Of a DNA stretch of 64,000 nt, positions 4,086 through 53,447 are shown piece by piece. The stretch lies in contig NZ_SGIT01000001.1 of NCBI RefSeq assembly GCF_004208525.1, positions 1,736,001-1,800,000 on the forward strand, written 5' to 3'. The notes under the pieces were generated by a model. It did no database searches. It was given only the letters and a program-made list of their open reading frames with translations, and was not told the DNA's origin. How positions within the stretch are numbered: position 1 is the stretch's first letter; each line of letters begins with the position of its first letter. The position numbers and the translations under genes are program-made. This stretch comes from Sphingobacterium corticibacterium (GTDB lineage: Bacteria; Bacteroidota; Bacteroidia; Sphingobacteriales; Sphingobacteriaceae).

Positions 4086-5819
4086 CTACTCCCTTTCCTG
4101 CAGTTTCCGTTTGCTGCTTTCGCTCAAGCCGACCGTTTGTTGTAAACCTTCTTGGAGACTCTTCCAAATAGTTTTAAAGTGAGAATATTCGGGTACGCGC
4201 TTATAATCTACTTCCCCAATGTGGTACACTTCATTTGCATCTGGATTACTATCATTGAGCAAAAGCTGGTTGATTAAAAACGTGAGAATACCGCGCTTTC
4301 CTCTTTTATTTGTTTCCTCATCGGGAGGGTATAAAAGATTCACTTTAAGTTGATCGTAATCAAAATAGAGCTTACCCCAATTCCGGTAATCATTGCCCTG
4401 CATGTCAAAGCGTATACGACGCACATTTCCTGAAGCAAACTCTAGGTTCAGTAACGGTGTAAGTATTCGGTTGAATGCTGATATTTGCATAGGTGTCAAC
4501 GTGCCGCTATAGGAATGGCTACCGTTTTCTTGCACCATATCGAAGCCAAAGAGCGCGTGTAGTTTCCCAGAACCCATTAGGTTTGCCTGCAAATCAGCTC
4601 GCATAAATTTATCACTTTTAAGTTGAATGGTGTCATTGGTCACATTGGTGAGATTGCCATGTGCCTGCTCAAAAGTAATAACGCCTTCGCGAAGATATTT
4701 TCCGCTCATCTCATGATAGGAAATATCGACGTCCTTGACAAAAACGGTATCAAAACAGAAGAGTTGTTTAACAGCCATTATTTTTTGGTGCGGAGCCTCA
4801 CCGATCTTATTTACATTATCTTTCTGAAAACGCTTATCTTTATGAAAAGAAGTCTTACCTCCATCTATATAGGCATATCCAGAAGAAATCCGCTGCCGAT
4901 CAAACAGCTCTCGAAGACGCATCTTCTCCAACCTTAATGTATCAAAGTTCAGATAAATCAACGCCTTATTTTCCTTATCGCTGCGGAAGTAATCTATTTT
5001 GCGTATTCTAGGCGAAAGGGCAACGTCCGTCAACAACAACAAATCCTCCCGGCTATCTACCTTCAGCCGATCAAAACCTACCTTATAAGGACTGTTTGGA
5101 ATCTCGTATTGAAACTTAGGAACATCTACTTGTAGCGCTTTAAAATAATAGATACGTGTAGAATCATGCGCGGCGTTTTCATCTACCAGAATATCATAAA
5201 ATTGGAAATGTGTACTATCCATTTTTATCTCATTTGTGTTACCGCTTTCCGTTTTTGAATATTTGATGTTGAAATGATCTAGACTAATCTCCCCTATTTG
5301 CACTGACTTGACCCTATCTTTAATTCGATCATACAGCGAGCTTGCATTATCATTTTTGACCGTATCGTTATAAGCATGAAATTCATTCAGCACATGCAAA
5401 TCAACGCCGTCTAGTATAATACGTTTGATAGATAATTTTTTACGTACCAACGCTGACCAAACACTTACGCCTGTCACTTCTAAAGATTTTAATTTGATAT
5501 TAAAGCGGGTATCAGGCGCGGTCTTCCCAGCAACCTGCTTACGGTAAATTGCGGAATCAGAAATCAGTTCAGCATTTTTGACACGGACAGTTCCTGTAAG
5601 GATACGCAGGTCCATATCCTCATACTCCAACGTGTAGAGGCCGTTGCTCTTTTGCTGAACCACTTCTTCCAATTTCGCTTTGATTTTAGGCTTCCAATTA
5701 CGCACATAATAGGCGCTTAATGTCAATACGATGAGCAAGACTAATAACAGGATGCCTCCTATCCATTTCCATTTGCGAGGTATCGAACGTACGTTTTTCA
5801 TTATCCGGTCTTTCCTCAT
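4086..5819 (-). CDS. AsmA-like / DUF748-type inner-membrane-anchored protein
   Basis: The protein has 577 residues with a basic N-terminus, one transmembrane helix at about residues 18-40 (WIGGILLLVLLIVLTLSAYY), then a long periplasmic beta-rich domain with AsmA-like repeating strands (for example LEYEDMDLRILTGTVRVKNAEL). AsmA/YhdP-like proteins bridge inner and outer membranes and are implicated in lipid transport; this is inference from general architecture. The ATG at 5819 overlaps the stop of a 32-codon frame by 4 bp, which supports this start. An internal ATG at 5801 has an AGGAAA 10 nt before it and is the alternative. Confidence 0.6.
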   Translation of the reverse strand: MRKDRIMKNVRSIPRKWKWIGGILLLVLLIVLTLSAYYVRNWKPKIKAKLEEVVQQKSNGLYTLEYEDMDLRILTGTVRVKNAELISDSAIYRKQVAGKTAPDTRFNIKLKSLEVTGVSVWSALVRKKLSIKRIILDGVDLHVLNEFHAYNDTVKNDNASSLYDRIKDRVKSVQIGEISLDHFNIKYSKTESGNTNEIKMDSTHFQFYDILVDENAAHDSTRIYYFKALQVDVPKFQYEIPNSPYKVGFDRLKVDSREDLLLLTDVALSPRIRKIDYFRSDKENKALIYLNFDTLRLEKMRLRELFDRQRISSGYAYIDGGKTSFHKDKRFQKDNVNKIGEAPHQKIMAVKQLFCFDTVFVKDVDISYHEMSGKYLREGVITFEQAHGNLTNVTNDTIQLKSDKFMRADLQANLMGSGKLHALFGFDMVQENGSHSYSGTLTPMQISAFNRILTPLLNLEFASGNVRRIRFDMQGNDYRNWGKLYFDYDQLKVNLLYPPDEETNKRGKRGILTFLINQLLLNDSNPDANEVYHIGEVDYKRVPEYSHFKTIWKSLQEGLQQTVGLSESSKRKLQERE

Positions 5820-5914
5820 TTTGGATTACGTGTTTCTTTTTTCTGTTGGCTCCTGATCACGAGGAAAATTCCCAGCGCAATAAATAGAACTGCAAATATT
5901 ATCGGTAATACCAT
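5816..5914 (-). CDS. 32-residue single-helix membrane peptide, coupled to the AsmA-like gene
   Basis: Translation of the reverse strand from ATG 5914 gives a 32-residue peptide: a hydrophobic stretch (VLPIIFAVLFIALGIFLVI) followed by a strongly basic tail with RSQQKKE and a final lysine. The layout predicts one membrane helix with a cytoplasmic tail. Its TGA overlaps the ATG of the 577-residue membrane protein as ATGA, the usual sign of translational coupling. No family is recognised. It could be a small regulator or assembly partner of the AsmA-like protein, or a leader peptide setting its translation. Confidence 0.5.
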   Translation of the reverse strand: MVLPIIFAVLFIALGIFLVIRSQQKKETRNPK

Positions 5915-6002
5915 AATCTTATCTATTTTTAAATGAACATATTGGGATAGTAAAATGTTTTATTGTTAACTTTAAAGACGATGAAACATTAAAATTGAGC
6001 CT

Positions 6003-7121
6003 ATGAATACGAGAAGAGACTTCCTTCAAAAGATTACTTATTCGGTCATGGCACTGCCCTTCTTGCCTTCAACCTGGCAATTTGATTTGGCCTCTTCCGA
6101 CAACAAGCCCTATGACGGTCCTGTCTTGCGTGTTGCTATTATGGGACTTGGTGGATATGGAACACGTGTTGCGGAGGCTATGCAGTCTTGTAAAAAGGCT
6201 AAATTAGCCGGTGTGATCAGTGGCACACCAGCAAAAATCAAAGATTGGCAGTCCAAATACCAAATTCCGAAAAAAAACTGTTACAACTATGAGAATTTTG
6301 ACACATTAAAGGACAATCCTGATATTGATGCCGTATACGTGATCACACCAAATGCACTTCATCACGATCAGGTCATTCGGGCTGCAAAAGCCGGCAAGCA
6401 TGTCATTTGTGAAAAGCCAATGGGACTGAATGCTAAAGAGGGGGAAGAAATGGTTCGTGCATGCGAAGAAGCTAACGTTAAGTTATTAGTGGGATATCGT
6501 ATGCATTTTGAGCCAAACACGTTGGAAGTCGTCCGCATGCGCCAGCATGGTGATTTTGGGAAGATTCTCTTTTTTCAAGGGCAATGTGGTTTCCGGATAG
6601 GAGATCCTAATCAATGGAGGTTGGATAAGACCCTAGCCGGTGGCGGTGCGCTGATGGATATCGGTATTTATGCGATCAATGGTGCCCGCTATATGGTCGG
6701 CGAAGAACCCATATGGGTGACTGCACAAGAGACAAAGACCGATGCCGTTAAATTTAAGGAGGGTGTAGATGAGACCATTTTATTTCAGCTTGGTTTTCCG
6801 AGTGGCGCCGTAGCCTCCTGCCTATCCACCTACAACATGAATCACCTCGACCGCTTTTTTTTAAATGGTGAAAAAGGTTTTGCCGAGATGCAACCCTCAA
6901 CAGGCTACGGACCTATAGTAGGTCGGACACATAAAGGTAAACTTACACAACCGCACATTACCCATCAAACCTTACAAATGGAAGAAATGGCCTCTATTAT
7001 CCTGGAGGGAAAAGAGGCTATTATACCTGTTGATGGGAAAGAAGGCTTAAAAGATTTAAAAATAATAGACGCTATTTATCAATCCTGTAAAACAGGTGAT
7101 AAACTTACTCTAAATCTCTAA
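6003..7121 (+). CDS. Gfo/Idh/MocA family oxidoreductase with Tat-like signal
   Basis: The N-terminus MNTRRDFLQKITYSVMALPF has a twin-arginine motif followed by a hydrophobic stretch, so export as a folded holoenzyme is likely. The Rossmann domain starts at about residue 43 (RVAIMGLGGYGTRVAEAM). The family's catalytic motif is present as CEKPMG at about residue 139, and the C-terminal beta-sheet domain starts near GKILFFQGQCGFRIGDPNQW. It resembles periplasmic glucose-fructose oxidoreductase-like enzymes acting on sugars or sugar acids with tightly bound NAD(P). At 372 residues it is of normal length. It is divergent from the 32-residue peptide gene; the substrate cannot be assigned. Confidence 0.88.
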   Translation: MNTRRDFLQKITYSVMALPFLPSTWQFDLASSDNKPYDGPVLRVAIMGLGGYGTRVAEAMQSCKKAKLAGVISGTPAKIKDWQSKYQIPKKNCYNYENFDTLKDNPDIDAVYVITPNALHHDQVIRAAKAGKHVICEKPMGLNAKEGEEMVRACEEANVKLLVGYRMHFEPNTLEVVRMRQHGDFGKILFFQGQCGFRIGDPNQWRLDKTLAGGGALMDIGIYAINGARYMVGEEPIWVTAQETKTDAVKFKEGVDETILFQLGFPSGAVASCLSTYNMNHLDRFFLNGEKGFAEMQPSTGYGPIVGRTHKGKLTQPHITHQTLQMEEMASIILEGKEAIIPVDGKEGLKDLKIIDAIYQSCKTGDKLTLNL

Positions 7122-20200: not shown

Positions 20201-20273
20201 GATTCCGTAGCTCAGCTGGTAGAGCAATACACTTTTAATGTATGGGTCCTGGGTTCGAATCCCAGCGGGATCA
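20201..20273 (+). tRNA. tRNA-Lys (anticodon TTT)
   Basis: A complete cloverleaf can be drawn: acceptor arms GATTCCG and CGGGATC with discriminator A, D arm GCTC-AGCTGGTAG-GAGC, anticodon stem ATACA/TGTAT with loop CTTTTAA (anticodon TTT), and a TpsiC arm CTGGG-TTCGAAT-CCCAG. The CCA is not encoded. It marks the left border of an accessory zone and is probably the original target of integrating elements. Confidence 0.96.
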
Positions 20274-20278
20274 CAAAC

Positions 20279-33434: not shown

Positions 33435-33462
33435 ATTAGAAATAAAAGGTGTATTATTTCAT
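33435..33462 (+). repeat. 28-bp direct repeat, left copy (putative island border)
   Basis: The first 24 bases (beginning ATTAGAAATAAAAGGTGT) are identical to 51,211-51,234. One mismatch and CAT follow in both. The two copies enclose 17.7 kb of transport and defence genes, so they may be attachment sites or homology arms. Confidence 0.65.
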
Positions 33463-33545
33463 TATCGTGGGCAAAGATGAAATGGGAATCTTATATTCGA
33501 TGTACAAGAAACTCTCCCCAACTTTTTCTATTTCCTTAAATAGGG

Positions 33546-48868: not shown

Positions 48869-50047
48869 CTACGTTTTTTTTTCGTTATCGTTCGATGGTG
48901 TTGCCACGCGATTTAACAGGATATATCCCGTTACACCCGAAAGAAGCGAAGCGACCAGTATGGAAAATTTTGCCTCGGCAATAAGCAGGTTGTCCGAAAA
49001 GGACAGCAGGGCAATAAATATGGACATGGTAAACCCGATACCCGCCAAAAGTCCTACGCCGATAATCTGTGCCCAGGATGCCCCCTGCGGCATAGAACCT
49101 ATACGCAGAAGGATCGCCAGTTTGGTCATCAGGTAAACGCCAACAGGCTTACCCAACATAAGCCCAACAATGATCCCTATCCCCAAAGGTGAAATCAATC
49201 CCTCCAGCATTCCCTCTTCAAAACGGATAGCTGTATTCGCTAAAGCAAACAAGGGAACGATCAAAAAGTTTACGGGCGTGGTAAGGGCATGTTCGAGTTT
49301 TAGTAGCGGCGGTTCTTTTTGCCCTTTGGTAGCCAATGGGATGGTCATGGCGGTCAGCACGCCGGCTATGGTGGCGTGGATACCCGAATGGTGGACAAAA
49401 TACCAGATAAAAAGGCCGGGAATGAGGTAAAAGATCAAGGATCGAACGCCTAACCTGTTAAAAATGAAGAGTAGTGCCAATATAGCCGCAGCATAGCCAA
49501 GATATATGGTGTGAAGTTCTGCCGAATAGAAAATGGCAATAACCAGAATGGCGATGAGATCGTCCACAATAGCCAGTGCCGCTAAAAACACTTTTAATGA
49601 AGCGGGTACTCGTTTGCCAAGCATGGCAATCACGGCCAAAGCAAAGGCGATATCCGTTGCCATAGGGATTCCCCAGCCACTAACGGTTTCCGTCCCTTGA
49701 TTGACCGCGAAATATATACCAGCGGGTACAATGGCTCCGCCGAAGGCACAAAATATCGGGAGAAGGGCCTGTCGGGGAGTAGACAGTTCCCCACTCACCA
49801 ACTCTCTTTTTATCTCCAGTCCGACCAGAAGAAAGAAAATAGCCATCAGGCCGTCGTTGATCCAGAGGGCGGTGGTATATCGTAAATGTACCGAAGCTGT
49901 CTCAAACCCCAGCGGTGTGTTCAGTATATTTTCAAATGTAGCACCGAGCGGAGAGTTGGCAATAGTCAAAGAAATAAGCACACATATAAACAGGATTATC
50001 CCTCCGCTTGTCGGTGAATCAGTAAAATTTTTAAGGATTTTCAGCAT
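48869..50047 (-). CDS. nhaA: Na+/H+ antiporter NhaA
   Basis: The protein has 392 residues with twelve helices. Typical are INDGLMAIFFLLVGLEIKRE, the pH/ion-binding MATDIAFALAVIAMLG and AALAIVDDLIAILVIAIFYS (the essential Asp pair). It extrudes Na+ for H+. The ATG 50047 (MLKILKNF) is chosen; an upstream in-frame TTG would add eight residues. The DAACS gene follows 1 bp downstream, so the Na+ exporter and a Na+-coupled importer form an operon. Confidence 0.94.
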   Translation of the reverse strand: MLKILKNFTDSPTSGGIILFICVLISLTIANSPLGATFENILNTPLGFETASVHLRYTTALWINDGLMAIFFLLVGLEIKRELVSGELSTPRQALLPIFCAFGGAIVPAGIYFAVNQGTETVSGWGIPMATDIAFALAVIAMLGKRVPASLKVFLAALAIVDDLIAILVIAIFYSAELHTIYLGYAAAILALLFIFNRLGVRSLIFYLIPGLFIWYFVHHSGIHATIAGVLTAMTIPLATKGQKEPPLLKLEHALTTPVNFLIVPLFALANTAIRFEEGMLEGLISPLGIGIIVGLMLGKPVGVYLMTKLAILLRIGSMPQGASWAQIIGVGLLAGIGFTMSIFIALLSFSDNLLIAEAKFSILVASLLSGVTGYILLNRVATPSNDNEKKT

Positions 50048-50102
50048 AACTAGTTCCGTAAAAGGTGACAAGTTTCAAAGATAATATAACCAAATAGATT
50101 AG

Positions 50103-50669
50103 AAAAGGAAAATCGGATATGATTGCCAAAACCGTCGTGTTGCACGTGTTCCCATCAATTTTCTCTCAAATAACCGTGACCTTTATATTGAAGAGGATTA
50201 TCAAAAGCAATTTACCGTTTATTTTGACAGGGCGCGAAAGCTTGAACTTATAGACTTTGCACTTCAAAATCCTCCTTCTGATGAAGTGATTAAGGGCGAA
50301 GTAAACATTCAACCCGTCTATCTTCAGCATTTAAATTACATTTCCGTTGATGAAGATAATGTTATTGAAGCTGTTACCGACTATTTAAGAGCAAAAGTTA
50401 ATCGTAATCAATGGATTGAGAATGAAATTATTGAAGAAGAAGTTGCTGTAGATTTAGAAAATCGCCTGACAAAATTTTGGCTGACACGTCAAAAAGCGAT
50501 CAATCTAACAGAAAAGAATCTCGATAAACCAGATCGTGGAAAGCTTCTTTATTGCGAATGTAAAATACGCAATGAAGTTATTAGGGACATTGTGCCACAT
50601 GTAGGTACAATTGCAGGAACCTATCATGCTTTGGTTGTAGCAAAGTCATTGGGCTGGCATCCTCGATGA
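50103..50669 (+). pseudogene. 5'-truncated component of an ABC-three-component (ABC-3C) system
   Basis: The frame is open from 50103 (an in-frame TAG at 50,100) to 50669 with no start at the left. The peptide contains VPINFLSNNRDLYIEEDYQK and ISVDEDNVIEAVTDYLRAKV, then LENRLTKFWLTRQKAI and the ending VGTIAGTYHALVVAKSLGWH. An ending of the type G(S/T)YH...(V/L)GWHP is typical of C-terminal domains of ABC-3C effector components. The stop overlaps the start of the middle component by 4 bp, as in intact operons. The missing 5' end lies next to nhaA, marking a recombination junction. Confidence 0.6.
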
Positions 50670-51052
50670 AATACATTTTAGAAACTATGGGTGAGGTATT
50701 AGAAGAGGTAAAGGTCTGGAATACTCCGATTATTGGAGCGTGTTTATTATGGAGATTTACGAGTGGATATACATCTAACCATCCTAATGGTGATGGACCG
50801 ACAGGATTGTTGCATTTTATTGCAACAGCTATTTTGACAAACCAGCGATTATCAACACCAATATCGAATAAAAGGGCAGATTTGCAATCTTATGTCAGAA
50901 GTTTTGAAGAAACTAAAAGTTCAGATTTGTTACTTAGTATCCATGAAAGAGTGAAGGATAAAATGTCTTATACGATGAAAGCTCTATCAGCAGACGGAAC
51001 GGTTAAAATAATTGTTTTTATTTCGAATAGGAGGCTTTTTTGTCTATCCTGA
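50666..51052 (+). CDS. ABC-3C middle component, probably 3'-truncated
   Basis: The frame of 128 residues reads VKVWNTPIIGACLLWRFTSG, then GLLHFIATAILTNQRLSTPI, SNKRADLQSYVRSFEETKSS and DLLLSIHERVKDKMSYTMKA. This matches the helical middle component of ABC-three-component systems (type not assigned). The last 20 residues (VKIIVFISNRRLFCLS) diverge from what is expected and the ABC ATPase gene that should follow is absent. The intact middle component plus truncated neighbour indicates a dead operon. Confidence 0.6.
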   Translation: MKYILETMGEVLEEVKVWNTPIIGACLLWRFTSGYTSNHPNGDGPTGLLHFIATAILTNQRLSTPISNKRADLQSYVRSFEETKSSDLLLSIHERVKDKMSYTMKALSADGTVKIIVFISNRRLFCLS

Positions 51053-51210
51053 CTTGAATTTAACGTCTAAATTCTTTATCTTATAAATTATAAAGCAATT
51101 GCAGCTAAAATGTATGTCAAACCAGTGAGCGATTCGGTGAGTAGGGAAAACGAAGGTTTGTAAAGTACTGATAAAGAGATTAATTCTCGAAGGGTGTTAT
51201 TCCCCTCCGG

Positions 51211-51238
51211 ATTAGAAATAAAAGGTGTATTATTCCAT
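51211..51238 (+). repeat. 28-bp direct repeat, right copy (putative island border)
   Basis: It matches 33,435-33,462 in 27 of 28 positions. It stands 16 bp before the 21-bp array. Confidence 0.65.
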
Positions 51239-51254
51239 GATCTAAGCGGTAATC

Positions 51255-51653
51255 TAACGTTACTTATATTTAAAATAACGTATCTATAATTTAAATTAAC
51301 GTTGTATTTATTGAAAAAAACGTCTTTTTATAAGATAAAAAAGATACTACTTATTATTATATCGTTTATTTATTTAATATAAACGATATAGTATTTCTAT
51401 GAAACGGTATTATTTATTTTCTAATCGTTTTATTTAATTGGCATATCGTTTATATTAATCATCATATCGGTCTTATATTTTCATTTAACGTTTAAATTAT
51501 TTAAAATATCGTTTGTTATTTAGAATAAAACGTAAATATATTTTATATAAACGTTATTAGTTTTATATAGAACGTCATATTAAATATATATATCGTTTAT
51601 ATCAATTTTAATACCGTTAATATATAATTATATAACGGTAAAATTTGAAATTT
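51255..51653 (+). repeat. array of nineteen 21-bp units with invariant CG register
   Basis: CpG dinucleotides fall at 51258, 51279, 51300, 51321, 51363, 51384, 51405, 51426, 51447, 51468, 51489, 51510, 51531, 51552, 51573, 51594, 51615 and 51636, every step 21 (one grid point, 51342, carries AG instead). No other CpG occurs in the array. Aligned on the CG, the base two before is A in 19/19, the base just before is A (12), T (6) or C (1), the base after is T (14), G (3) or A (2), and the next is T in 15. The core is thus A-W-C-G-D-T, close to a palindrome. The remaining 15 positions are unrelated between units and about 91% A/T (25 G/C in 285 by hand count). The frame is full of stops. It ends 43 bp before an FN3-protein gene. 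21 bp is two helical turns. Confidence 0.9.
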
Positions 51654-51696
51654 AGATAACTAAATCCTAAATTAGATATGTCTAATATCATTAATT

Positions 51697-52347
51697 ATGA
51701 ACTATATACGTGTGTTAGGTGGCTTCGTCCATCATAAAGACAACAAATTACTTGTAGAAGCAGATATTATCCTTTCTTCTATGAGTGGAAACCCCACATT
51801 CCCCACTCCTACTCCTTCGCTTGAAGAAATCGAAAATGCTTATAATGAGTATGCGACGTACTTAGCGCGTGCAAACTGGACTCATGGACGTATAGATAGG
51901 GAACTAAAACGTGAAAGTAAAGTTAAGCTGTCACAATTGTTAGGCCAACTGGCAGGCTATGTCAACTATGTGGCAAAAGGCGAGCTGTCCATCTTGTACT
52001 CATCGGGATTTCCAGTATTTACAGGAAGAAAGAAAGGGACTGTTCCAGAGGTGCCCACTGGGGGTCGACTTTCGGATGGGCGAGTTAGCGATGAACTATA
52101 CTTCGATTTCAATTCGTTAGGCAGAGATATGACCTATGAATATACCTATGCAATATGGATATCACGTGAAGATGCGCCACCGGAATCTTCAGAGCTTCAA
52201 TGGGAGCAATCACTTTTTACTACCCGTTCCCGAAAAAACTTGATTAAAAGCGTACCATCCCGATCTACAGTCTTTGCAAAAGTGCGTGCAATAAATCGCC
52301 ACGGCGTTGGGGATTGGAGTGCGGTCGTGAGTTTGCGGGTTCGGTAG
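51697..52347 (+). CDS. FN3-domain protein of a Bacteroidota-specific small family, array-associated
   Basis: The protein has 216 residues without signal peptide or membrane helix. Residues about 1-115 form a helical domain with the recurring family stretch GNPTFPTPTPSLEEIENAY and KVKLSQLLGQLAGYVNYVAK then LSILYSSGFPVF. Residues about 125-216 look like a fibronectin type III domain (YEYTYAIWISREDAPPESSE, SRSTVFAKVRAINRHGVGDW, SAVVSLRV). Similar two-domain proteins occur in other Bacteroidota and have no known role. The gene follows the 21-bp array directly; the leader includes ATTAGA/TCTAAT at 51,673-51,688. A DNA-binding or array-dependent function is speculation. Confidence 0.75.
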   Translation: MNYIRVLGGFVHHKDNKLLVEADIILSSMSGNPTFPTPTPSLEEIENAYNEYATYLARANWTHGRIDRELKRESKVKLSQLLGQLAGYVNYVAKGELSILYSSGFPVFTGRKKGTVPEVPTGGRLSDGRVSDELYFDFNSLGRDMTYEYTYAIWISREDAPPESSELQWEQSLFTTRSRKNLIKSVPSRSTVFAKVRAINRHGVGDWSAVVSLRVR

Positions 52348-52610
52348 TTTTTGTTGGCGTGCAGAAGATCCTGATCATAGAATCCAATAACTATAAAAGA
52401 ATAAAAGTACTTTAATACCTTTATTCACCAATTATTATTTACATTTGTTCTAGATGAGCTCATTAAAACGTTTATACATGCAAACAGGGGGATATGTACG
52501 GCGACAGTTTTACTTGGGAATACCTCCAACAGGGACTATAATGGTTGGGACATTCGGGTAGGCAAAAAATAAGAGAGCTATCAAACGAACAAATAATAAA
52601 TGAATAGAAT
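52348..52610. other. 263-bp gap, no gene recognised
   Basis: Nothing coding-like is visible on either strand. The 21-bp register does not continue here. The right part must contain the promoter of the DUF1858/DUF2249 operon. Confidence 0.5.
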
Positions 52611-53447
52611 ATGTTTATCAATGAACGAACCAAAATTGCAGCATTGCTGAAATATCATCCCGATGCATTGGAAACGATTGTAAAGCTTAGTCCGGATTTT
52701 AAAAAGCTAAGAAATCCCCTTTTGAGAGCATTGATGGCAGGGAGAACAACAATTGCTATGGCTTCAAAAATAGGCGGCTGCAAACCGGAAGACTTTTTCA
52801 AAGCACTGGCTCCTCTTGGTTTTGAAAGGGATTATCCACAAACAGACGATGCTGAAAACAGCGTTGCCAATAATAAGCCGAAGCCAGCTTATCTCCAACA
52901 TATACATCCCAATCAATTGGTCAACTTTGATGTGCGGGAGATGTTAGCGAAGGGAAACGATCCATTGAAAGCGATACAGCAAAAGGTAAAATTATTACTT
53001 CCTGGAGAAGTGCTCGTCATCATCAACAGTTTTGAACCCGTCCCATTAATCAAACTATTGGAAAGGCAAGGTTTTAAGAGTTATGTCAATCCTATTGATA
53101 CAGATACGATAGAAACTTTTTTCTATAAAATAGCTACTGATGATAAGCCAGTAGAAGACGTTCCTGTAGAGAAAAAGAAGCTAATAGCACCGGGCGACTG
53201 GCAAATGTTACTCAAGCAGTATGAGGATAATATGGTTGAAATAGATGTCCGTCGACTAGAAATGCCCATGCCTATGATGACTATACTGGAAAATTTAGAG
53301 ACATTACCTCCGGACAACGCACTTTATGTGCATCACAAAAGGATTCCGGTGTATCTTTTAGAAGAACTGGCAGAAAGAGAATTTGACTACAGAATAAAGG
53401 AAGTACAGGATGGCGAAGTTTACTTGTTGATATTTAAAAATAAATAA
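52611..53447 (+). CDS. DUF1858-DUF2249-DUF2249 protein
   Basis: The protein has 278 residues. The N-terminal DUF1858-like helical domain is KIAALLKYHPDALETIVKLS (to about residue 75). Two DUF2249 domains follow: VNFDVREMLAKGNDPLKAIQ (about 105-170), and VEIDVRRLEMPMPMMTILEN (about 210-278). DUF2249 proteins recur next to nitric-oxide and denitrification genes. It begins a four-gene forward cluster; the next gene starts 7 bp later. Confidence 0.82.
   Translation: MFINERTKIAALLKYHPDALETIVKLSPDFKKLRNPLLRALMAGRTTIAMASKIGGCKPEDFFKALAPLGFERDYPQTDDAENSVANNKPKPAYLQHIHPNQLVNFDVREMLAKGNDPLKAIQQKVKLLLPGEVLVIINSFEPVPLIKLLERQGFKSYVNPIDTDTIETFFYKIATDDKPVEDVPVEKKKLIAPGDWQMLLKQYEDNMVEIDVRRLEMPMPMMTILENLETLPPDNALYVHHKRIPVYLLEELAEREFDYRIKEVQDGEVYLLIFKNK

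Follow-up and report, generated by a model that had tools for sequence, protein, structure and literature searches.

Directly upstream of a gene for a protein with a predicted FN3 domain, the chromosome of Sphingobacterium corticibacterium carries a row of 19 units of 21 bp, each centered on a short dyad-symmetric core, and from sequence comparison we put at about one in two the probability that this row is a cooperative operator controlling that gene. The array lies in a stretch of 64,000 nt, here called the window (assembly GCF_004208525.1, contig NZ_SGIT01000001.1, positions 1,736,001 to 1,800,000). An original prediction, made from the letters of the window, had drawn attention to the array; it does not stand alone, but precedes one gene of a family, fam0, most of whose other members have 21-nt arrays as well.

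Register and conservation of the window array

Every CpG of the array had been predicted to fall on one 21-nt grid, and this was borne out: CG occupies 18 of 19 consecutive grid positions, with AG at the sole miss, and no off-grid CpG occurs in 51249-51650. In 5,000 dinucleotide-preserving shuffles of 51248-51653, tried at all periods from 15 to 30, the best grid had 7 CpGs at most, versus 18 in the real sequence. No other grid of at least six CpGs was present in the window at periods 8-63, except at multiples of the 21-bp one, and a column-information scan of the window gave a single peak at period 21, with none at periods 20 and 22. The filler measured 91.6% A/T over 285 bases, in agreement with the predicted value of about 91%. 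The predicted core A-W-C-G-D-T is exact in 13 of the 19 units and is therefore a tendency rather than a rule; relative to CG, all 19 units have A at position -2, 18 have A or T at -1, and 15 have T at +3. With these columns, the core is best viewed as a dyad near TAACGTTA with CG as the dyad center (dyad score of the array, p = 0.013). The units are not alike over their full length, a few columns round the core being kept and the rest variable, and Tandem Repeats Finder recovered just three period-21 fragments (2.3-2.6 copies, 77-80% match). We rejected coding heptads as an explanation: no open reading frame (ORF) of at least 60 aa runs over the window array, and ORFs on sister arrays lie in differing frames on either strand.

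Retention of the register in a related genome had been set beforehand as a test of the original prediction, and the orthologous array of Sphingobacterium micropteri (G034) retains all 19 grid positions, 17 of them as CG and two as TG, with one off-grid CpG. All 19 units were aligned without gaps by MAFFT; a second aligner placed two compensating 1-nt gaps where MAFFT has none. The two arrays differ at 74 of 399 bases, and genes farther downstream are ~96.5% identical. Differences fall in 13 of 152 core bases (-3 to +4) versus 61 of 247 filler bases (Fisher p = 3.5e-5), as expected from the claim that core and spacing are fixed and the filler freer. This comparison indicates that the array is inherited and under selection, with the core changing more slowly than the filler. 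We found no sign of the templated repeat writer that the original prediction had offered as one possible origin, because positions and filler are shared by descent in the orthologues.

A sequence-only model of four units was searched against 93 genomes of the genus, with stricter filters and 48 candidates scored per genome, and led to further arrays of the CG type; still others were found beside homologues of the gene downstream of the window array. Together these gave 15 CG-type arrays in nine genomes, the window array and 14 in eight other genomes of the genus, with CG at 190 of 213 grid positions and 7 off-grid CpGs in 4188 nt. Among the 23 grid positions without CG, 14 read TG or CA, as C-to-T transitions at CpG would produce on one strand or the other. 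Twelve of the 15 arrays lie directly upstream of a fam0 homologue, at several unrelated places; another (L073) runs to the end of its contig, and the contig matching the rest of that locus starts with fam0 (G043), while the two arrays of S. gobiense (G024; L064 and L065) have no fam0 within the fetched stretch. Four of the 12 fam0-linked arrays precede a broken or truncated fam0 (L067, L068, L070, and L088): the register is kept in three of them and slips by one base toward the end of L088, and L067 has three units fewer than L066 and is still in register. At L068, where the CG array is upstream of the broken fam0 copy, a 42-bp tandem repeat (5696-6156; 11 copies, 93% match), its period a multiple of 21, lies on the far side of that copy. 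A view based on CpG only was rejected, the 21-spaced CpG run at L003 being part of a 63-nt repeat with another core.

Arrays of period 21 upstream of fam0 homologues

About 50 bp separate the end of the window array from the fam0 ATG. The predicted structure of the fam0 protein combines a helical domain with an FN3 domain (pLDDT, the predicted local distance difference test score, 89.5), and the Protein Data Bank matches shown for the model are to the FN3 part. The window protein had no Pfam match; Pfam fn3 was matched by 4 of 27 fam0 relatives, and no replication family was among the matches. Homologues (E ≤ 1e-10) are encoded in 40 of the 93 genus genomes, and none was detected on the searched phage or plasmid records at E ≤ 1e-3. 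A defense role was considered and dropped, a PADLOC search with fam0 having returned no defense match.

For each fam0 locus we recorded the lag, among 10-69, at which the 1.2 kb of upstream sequence matched itself most strongly. With 60 loci taken by protein score, which in E-value came almost immediately behind the CG-type loci, a few near-twins being skipped, and which were not a random sample, the top lag was 21, 42, or 63 in 48 upstream versus 11 downstream regions. Forty further loci, including other genera of the same bacterial family and nine loci of other families, extended the set to 100, many of them orthologues and thus non-independent. The top lag was then a multiple of 21 in 85 of 100 upstream regions, 16 of 100 downstream regions, and 9 of 106 control pieces; when z > 5 was required in addition, the counts were 76, 4, and 2. 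This set includes eight known CG-array loci (the window, L101, L085, L089, L071, L066, L069, and L072) and six loci of the discovery set (L002-L007); none of these 14 is among the 15 misses, which leaves a multiple-of-21 lag in 71 of the remaining 86. Of the nine loci of other families, eight gave lag 42 and one 41, and four later loci from outside the family (L286-L289) gave 42, 42, 21, and 21. Across 400 kb of fam0-free sequence from the S. corticibacterium genome, 41 of 333 pieces had a multiple of 21 as top lag, five of them with z > 5.

A 21-column score of at least 120, a threshold of our own choice, was reached by 68 of the 100 fam0 upstream regions in a finer scan versus 2 of 444 pieces of those 400 kb in a coarser one. 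Thirteen fam0 copies of the window's own genome were examined, and eight reach this score (the window, L002-L007, and L285); for the remaining five (L280-L284) the score is 77-92, higher than the background 99% value of 64, but in L281, L283, and L284 the top lag is not a multiple of 21. The L004 array lies 838-1300 nt upstream of fam0 with ORFs in between. These are two minus-strand ORFs of 166 and 59 aa (G000:C1:264953 region), and, judging by eye, the two may represent an insertion, for example a toxin-antitoxin pair.

Lists of alignment gaps were noisy for diverged locus pairs, and close pairs alone were used. No gap falls inside the array in L183/L188 (97% identity, 655 nt), L182/L185 (96%, 750 nt), L144/L146 (85%, 702 nt), or L169/L175 (89%, 747 nt); L174/L181 differ by a gap of 21 nt and L176/L178 by 1 nt near the downstream end. 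Some arrays have super-periods of 42 or 63 nt, which point to ordinary duplication of whole units, and some sister arrays consist of alike units (L214 and L224, for example).

The motifs set on this common frame are diverse, and include TACTGnnnnCAGTA, AAACTnCnnGnAGTTT, TTGTACAA, and GAGGnnCCTC. Dyad symmetry was significant at p < 0.05 in 52 and at p < 0.01 in 47 of the 68 strong arrays. The original prediction had placed a CG core at the heart of the element: a kept core at kept spacing holds, but CG itself is not essential, as sister 21-bp grids bear quite different dyads. Motifs differ even between arrays of one genome. When motif similarity was compared with fam0 protein identity, the nine loci of other families being excluded, its mean was 0.94 at identity of at least 0.9, 0.70 at 0.8-0.9 (tenth percentile 0.30), and 0.30-0.32 below 0.5. 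L167 has a completely different motif from L170, L172, L179, and L184, with fam0 proteins 82-85% identical. The motif can thus switch completely while the 21-bp frame stays.

Candidate binder and competing explanations

Twenty-one base pairs are two turns of B-DNA, so every dyad of the row lies on the same face of the helix, and the sites are phased to it, with an exact 21-bp register over 19 units and with period 21 only standing out against 18-20, 22, and 23. Of the mechanisms raised by the original prediction, a cooperative protein filament best fits the exact register and the slower change of the core. A dimeric DNA-binding protein would occupy one dyad per two helical turns, neighboring dimers would touch and so build a filament whose length the number of units would set, and the filament would control the downstream fam0 gene. 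Such control, which we infer from the upstream position of the array, is the simplest outcome; it may be repression or activation, and repression seems to us the likelier of the two.

The leading candidate for the binder is a winged-helix protein. Of the 100 loci, 37 have a small gene of this type (excisionase/MerR kind) no more than 2 kb upstream, in most cases right in front of the array. Its product is predicted to consist of an N-terminal helix and a winged helix, and its structural matches include MerR-type proteins on DNA, RacA, and the centromere-binding domain of pSK1 Par. One family member matched phrog_66, "excisionase and transcriptional regulator", at 3.4e-4, and the match to HTH_17 was below the cut-off of that family. 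In one clade, recognition helix and motif change together. The weakest points of the analysis, both telling against the operator, are found here as well: no winged-helix gene was found at the window locus, so that the binder there is perhaps encoded elsewhere, and the covariation test was negative, resolving no binder from motif covariation among 30 loci (type-A gene ending 400-1000 nt upstream, score of at least 75).

Comparable filaments, built from small winged-helix proteins that line up next to one another along a run of sites, are described for lambda Xis on attR, which has three Xis sites, for RdfS, and for BldC, which according to the RdfS paper binds as one molecule per DNA turn (PMC7145599, PMC11963761). 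Two half-sites per 21 bp would likewise give about one protomer per turn in the arrays studied here. The present arrays differ in having about 12-27 units fixed at 21 bp, locus-specific motifs, and predicted sites; they also differ in that the window locus has no winged-helix gene that we could find. The open-access literature, in the parts consulted, yielded no description of such arrays (subscription journals were outside the scope).

The strongest competitor is a set of chromosome-organizing or partition-like sites, on which a filament protein would compact or position DNA from many arrays, with the FN3 gene a passenger. In partition centromeres (parC/parS arrays), small dimeric proteins likewise occupy sites set in a row. 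The pSK1 Par and RacA matches of the candidate binder speak for this explanation, as do the arrays that stand apart from fam0: two in S. gobiense, and five between large genes in 800 kb of the window's own genome. That scan gave seven period-21 peaks of at least 75, none at periods 18, 19, 20, 22, or 23, and three at period 24; besides the five (C1 572681, 690071, and 804116; C4 245091 and 392096), one peak falls inside a long coding sequence (C1 616801) and one has an unclear context (C4 472676). Small low-complexity ORFs overlap some of the five, and the motif at C4 392096, CTTT.T..tA.aAAG, is by eye similar to that of L006/L007. Against an organizing role stands the link to the upstream side of a single gene family, with 85 hits in 100 upstream regions against 16 downstream; many arrays with different motifs coexist in one genome, unlike partition centromeres, and a single protein would therefore not read them all. 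We noticed no partition ATPase beside the window array, where neighboring ORFs were listed and not all of them scanned against family libraries. We consider this explanation unlikely, and the partition-like centromere of the original prediction shares its standing, with nothing specific in its support. Plasmid iterons, direct repeats of ~17-22 bp that lie upstream of a gene and are read by a protein, resemble the array in these respects, the reader here being putative; in contrast to them, the array is chromosomal, occurs several times per genome, keeps a short dyad alone in each unit, and precedes an FN3-like gene and no replication initiator.

Somewhat more doubtful is a role in mobility or recombination, in which the winged-helix protein would act as a recombination directionality factor, with the array as the region it binds and as the mark of a mobile FN3 cassette. 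The small protein is indeed excisionase-like and the fam0-linked CG-type arrays do sit at several unrelated places, but species have many of the loci in common as orthologues, ORF lists read by eye showed no integrase next to the loci, and fam0 is missing from the searched phage and plasmid records, as is any match to the array DNA itself. The search for a clean empty site ended in G026, which holds a fam0 remnant instead. Far less probable is an RNA element, in which the array would be transcribed as a fam0 leader whose units pair with each other, or would act as a CRISPR-like array of short repeats. The units are self-complementary, and RNA folding of the window array gave z = -4.00, with 0 of 100 shuffles equally stable. 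The arms of the units nevertheless lack covariation (3353 complementary pairs vs. 3324 expected over 68 arrays, z = 1.26), and arms that vary independently favor the half-sites of a protein dimer over hairpins, a reading that we rejected; the core of the window type is too tight for a loop, and no Rfam match up to E = 1 was found in 49900-52700. CRISPR arrays likewise have a regular period with constant and variable parts, the constant part being partly palindromic and differing between loci, but here it is short and degenerate, the unit is always 21 bp, and the variable part is inherited by descent; near-identical repeats with unrelated spacers are absent from the window array. An old satellite, that is, a functionless, decayed 21-bp tandem repeat, is also very improbable: the 42- and 63-nt super-periods of some arrays do speak of recent whole-unit duplication, but decay would erode all 21 columns equally, and cores change about one-third as often as filler, dyad-symmetric columns hold the information, and a single period comes back with unrelated motifs on the upstream side of one gene family.

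Beyond the operator reading of the window array, we give slightly less than even odds to a broader possibility, that phased-dyad modules with FN3 cassettes occur throughout the Bacteroidota. The frame would be kept while the dyad is replaced wholesale between close relatives, a co-evolving winged-helix filament protein would read the new code, and solo arrays would be additional docking places for these filaments. Should our reading hold, a single architecture, phased 21-bp dyads ahead of an FN3 gene, has persisted through many rewritings of its recognition sequence, and the arrays offer a natural series for how a protein-DNA code switches at all of its sites together and for how far helical phasing alone selects spacing. 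They would also provide a first way into the role of fam0, a many-copy family without assigned function.

Feature coordinates and surroundings of the array

Table 1. Coordinates, within the window, of the array, its exceptional unit, and the adjacent gene
Feature	Position	Strand	Remarks
19-unit array, 21 bp per unit	51249..51647	.	CG center at 51258 + 21k, k = 0..18; dyad core near TAACGTTA, A/T-rich filler
Unit without CG (AG at 51342)	51336..51356	.	The S. micropteri orthologue has CG there
Gap between array and start codon, 49 bp	51648..51696	+	From sequence; a promoter in this gap or within the array is putative
fam0 gene, 216-aa protein	51697..52347	+	Helical N-terminal domain and predicted FN3 domain; the usual companion of the array

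A promoter consensus scan of 50900-52700 gave 14 promoter-like sites, and shuffles gave 8.6 (sd 3.0). One of the fam0-free arrays (G000:C1:804031-804493) has a super-repeat of 84 bp (4 x 21) with TTGCCCG and CGGGCAA units in alternation.

The 171 bp directly to the left of the array (51040-51210) have dozens of matches across the other genomes of the genus, with several in some of these genomes, and resemble one end of a mobile or repeated element. We rejected the idea that the array is part of this island sequence, as it lies outside the repeated match. A 32-bp stretch also left of the array (51211-51242) recurs 18 kb upstream (33435-33466) with 94% identity, and the pair are possibly attachment-site repeats of an island between them. 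The region from the tRNA-Lys gene (20201-20274) to the array, 20274-51216, is replaced in S. micropteri by a different stretch of ~10 kb, and is a variable region with its right border at the array. Parts of ABC-three-component systems are matched by two short ORFs within 50286-51052, one hitting CTD7 (3.7e-14) and the other MC3 (6.6e-5, slightly short of the cut-off). The CTD7-matching ORF also matches PADLOC LmuA (3.4e-8), and the two look like remnants of a defense locus.
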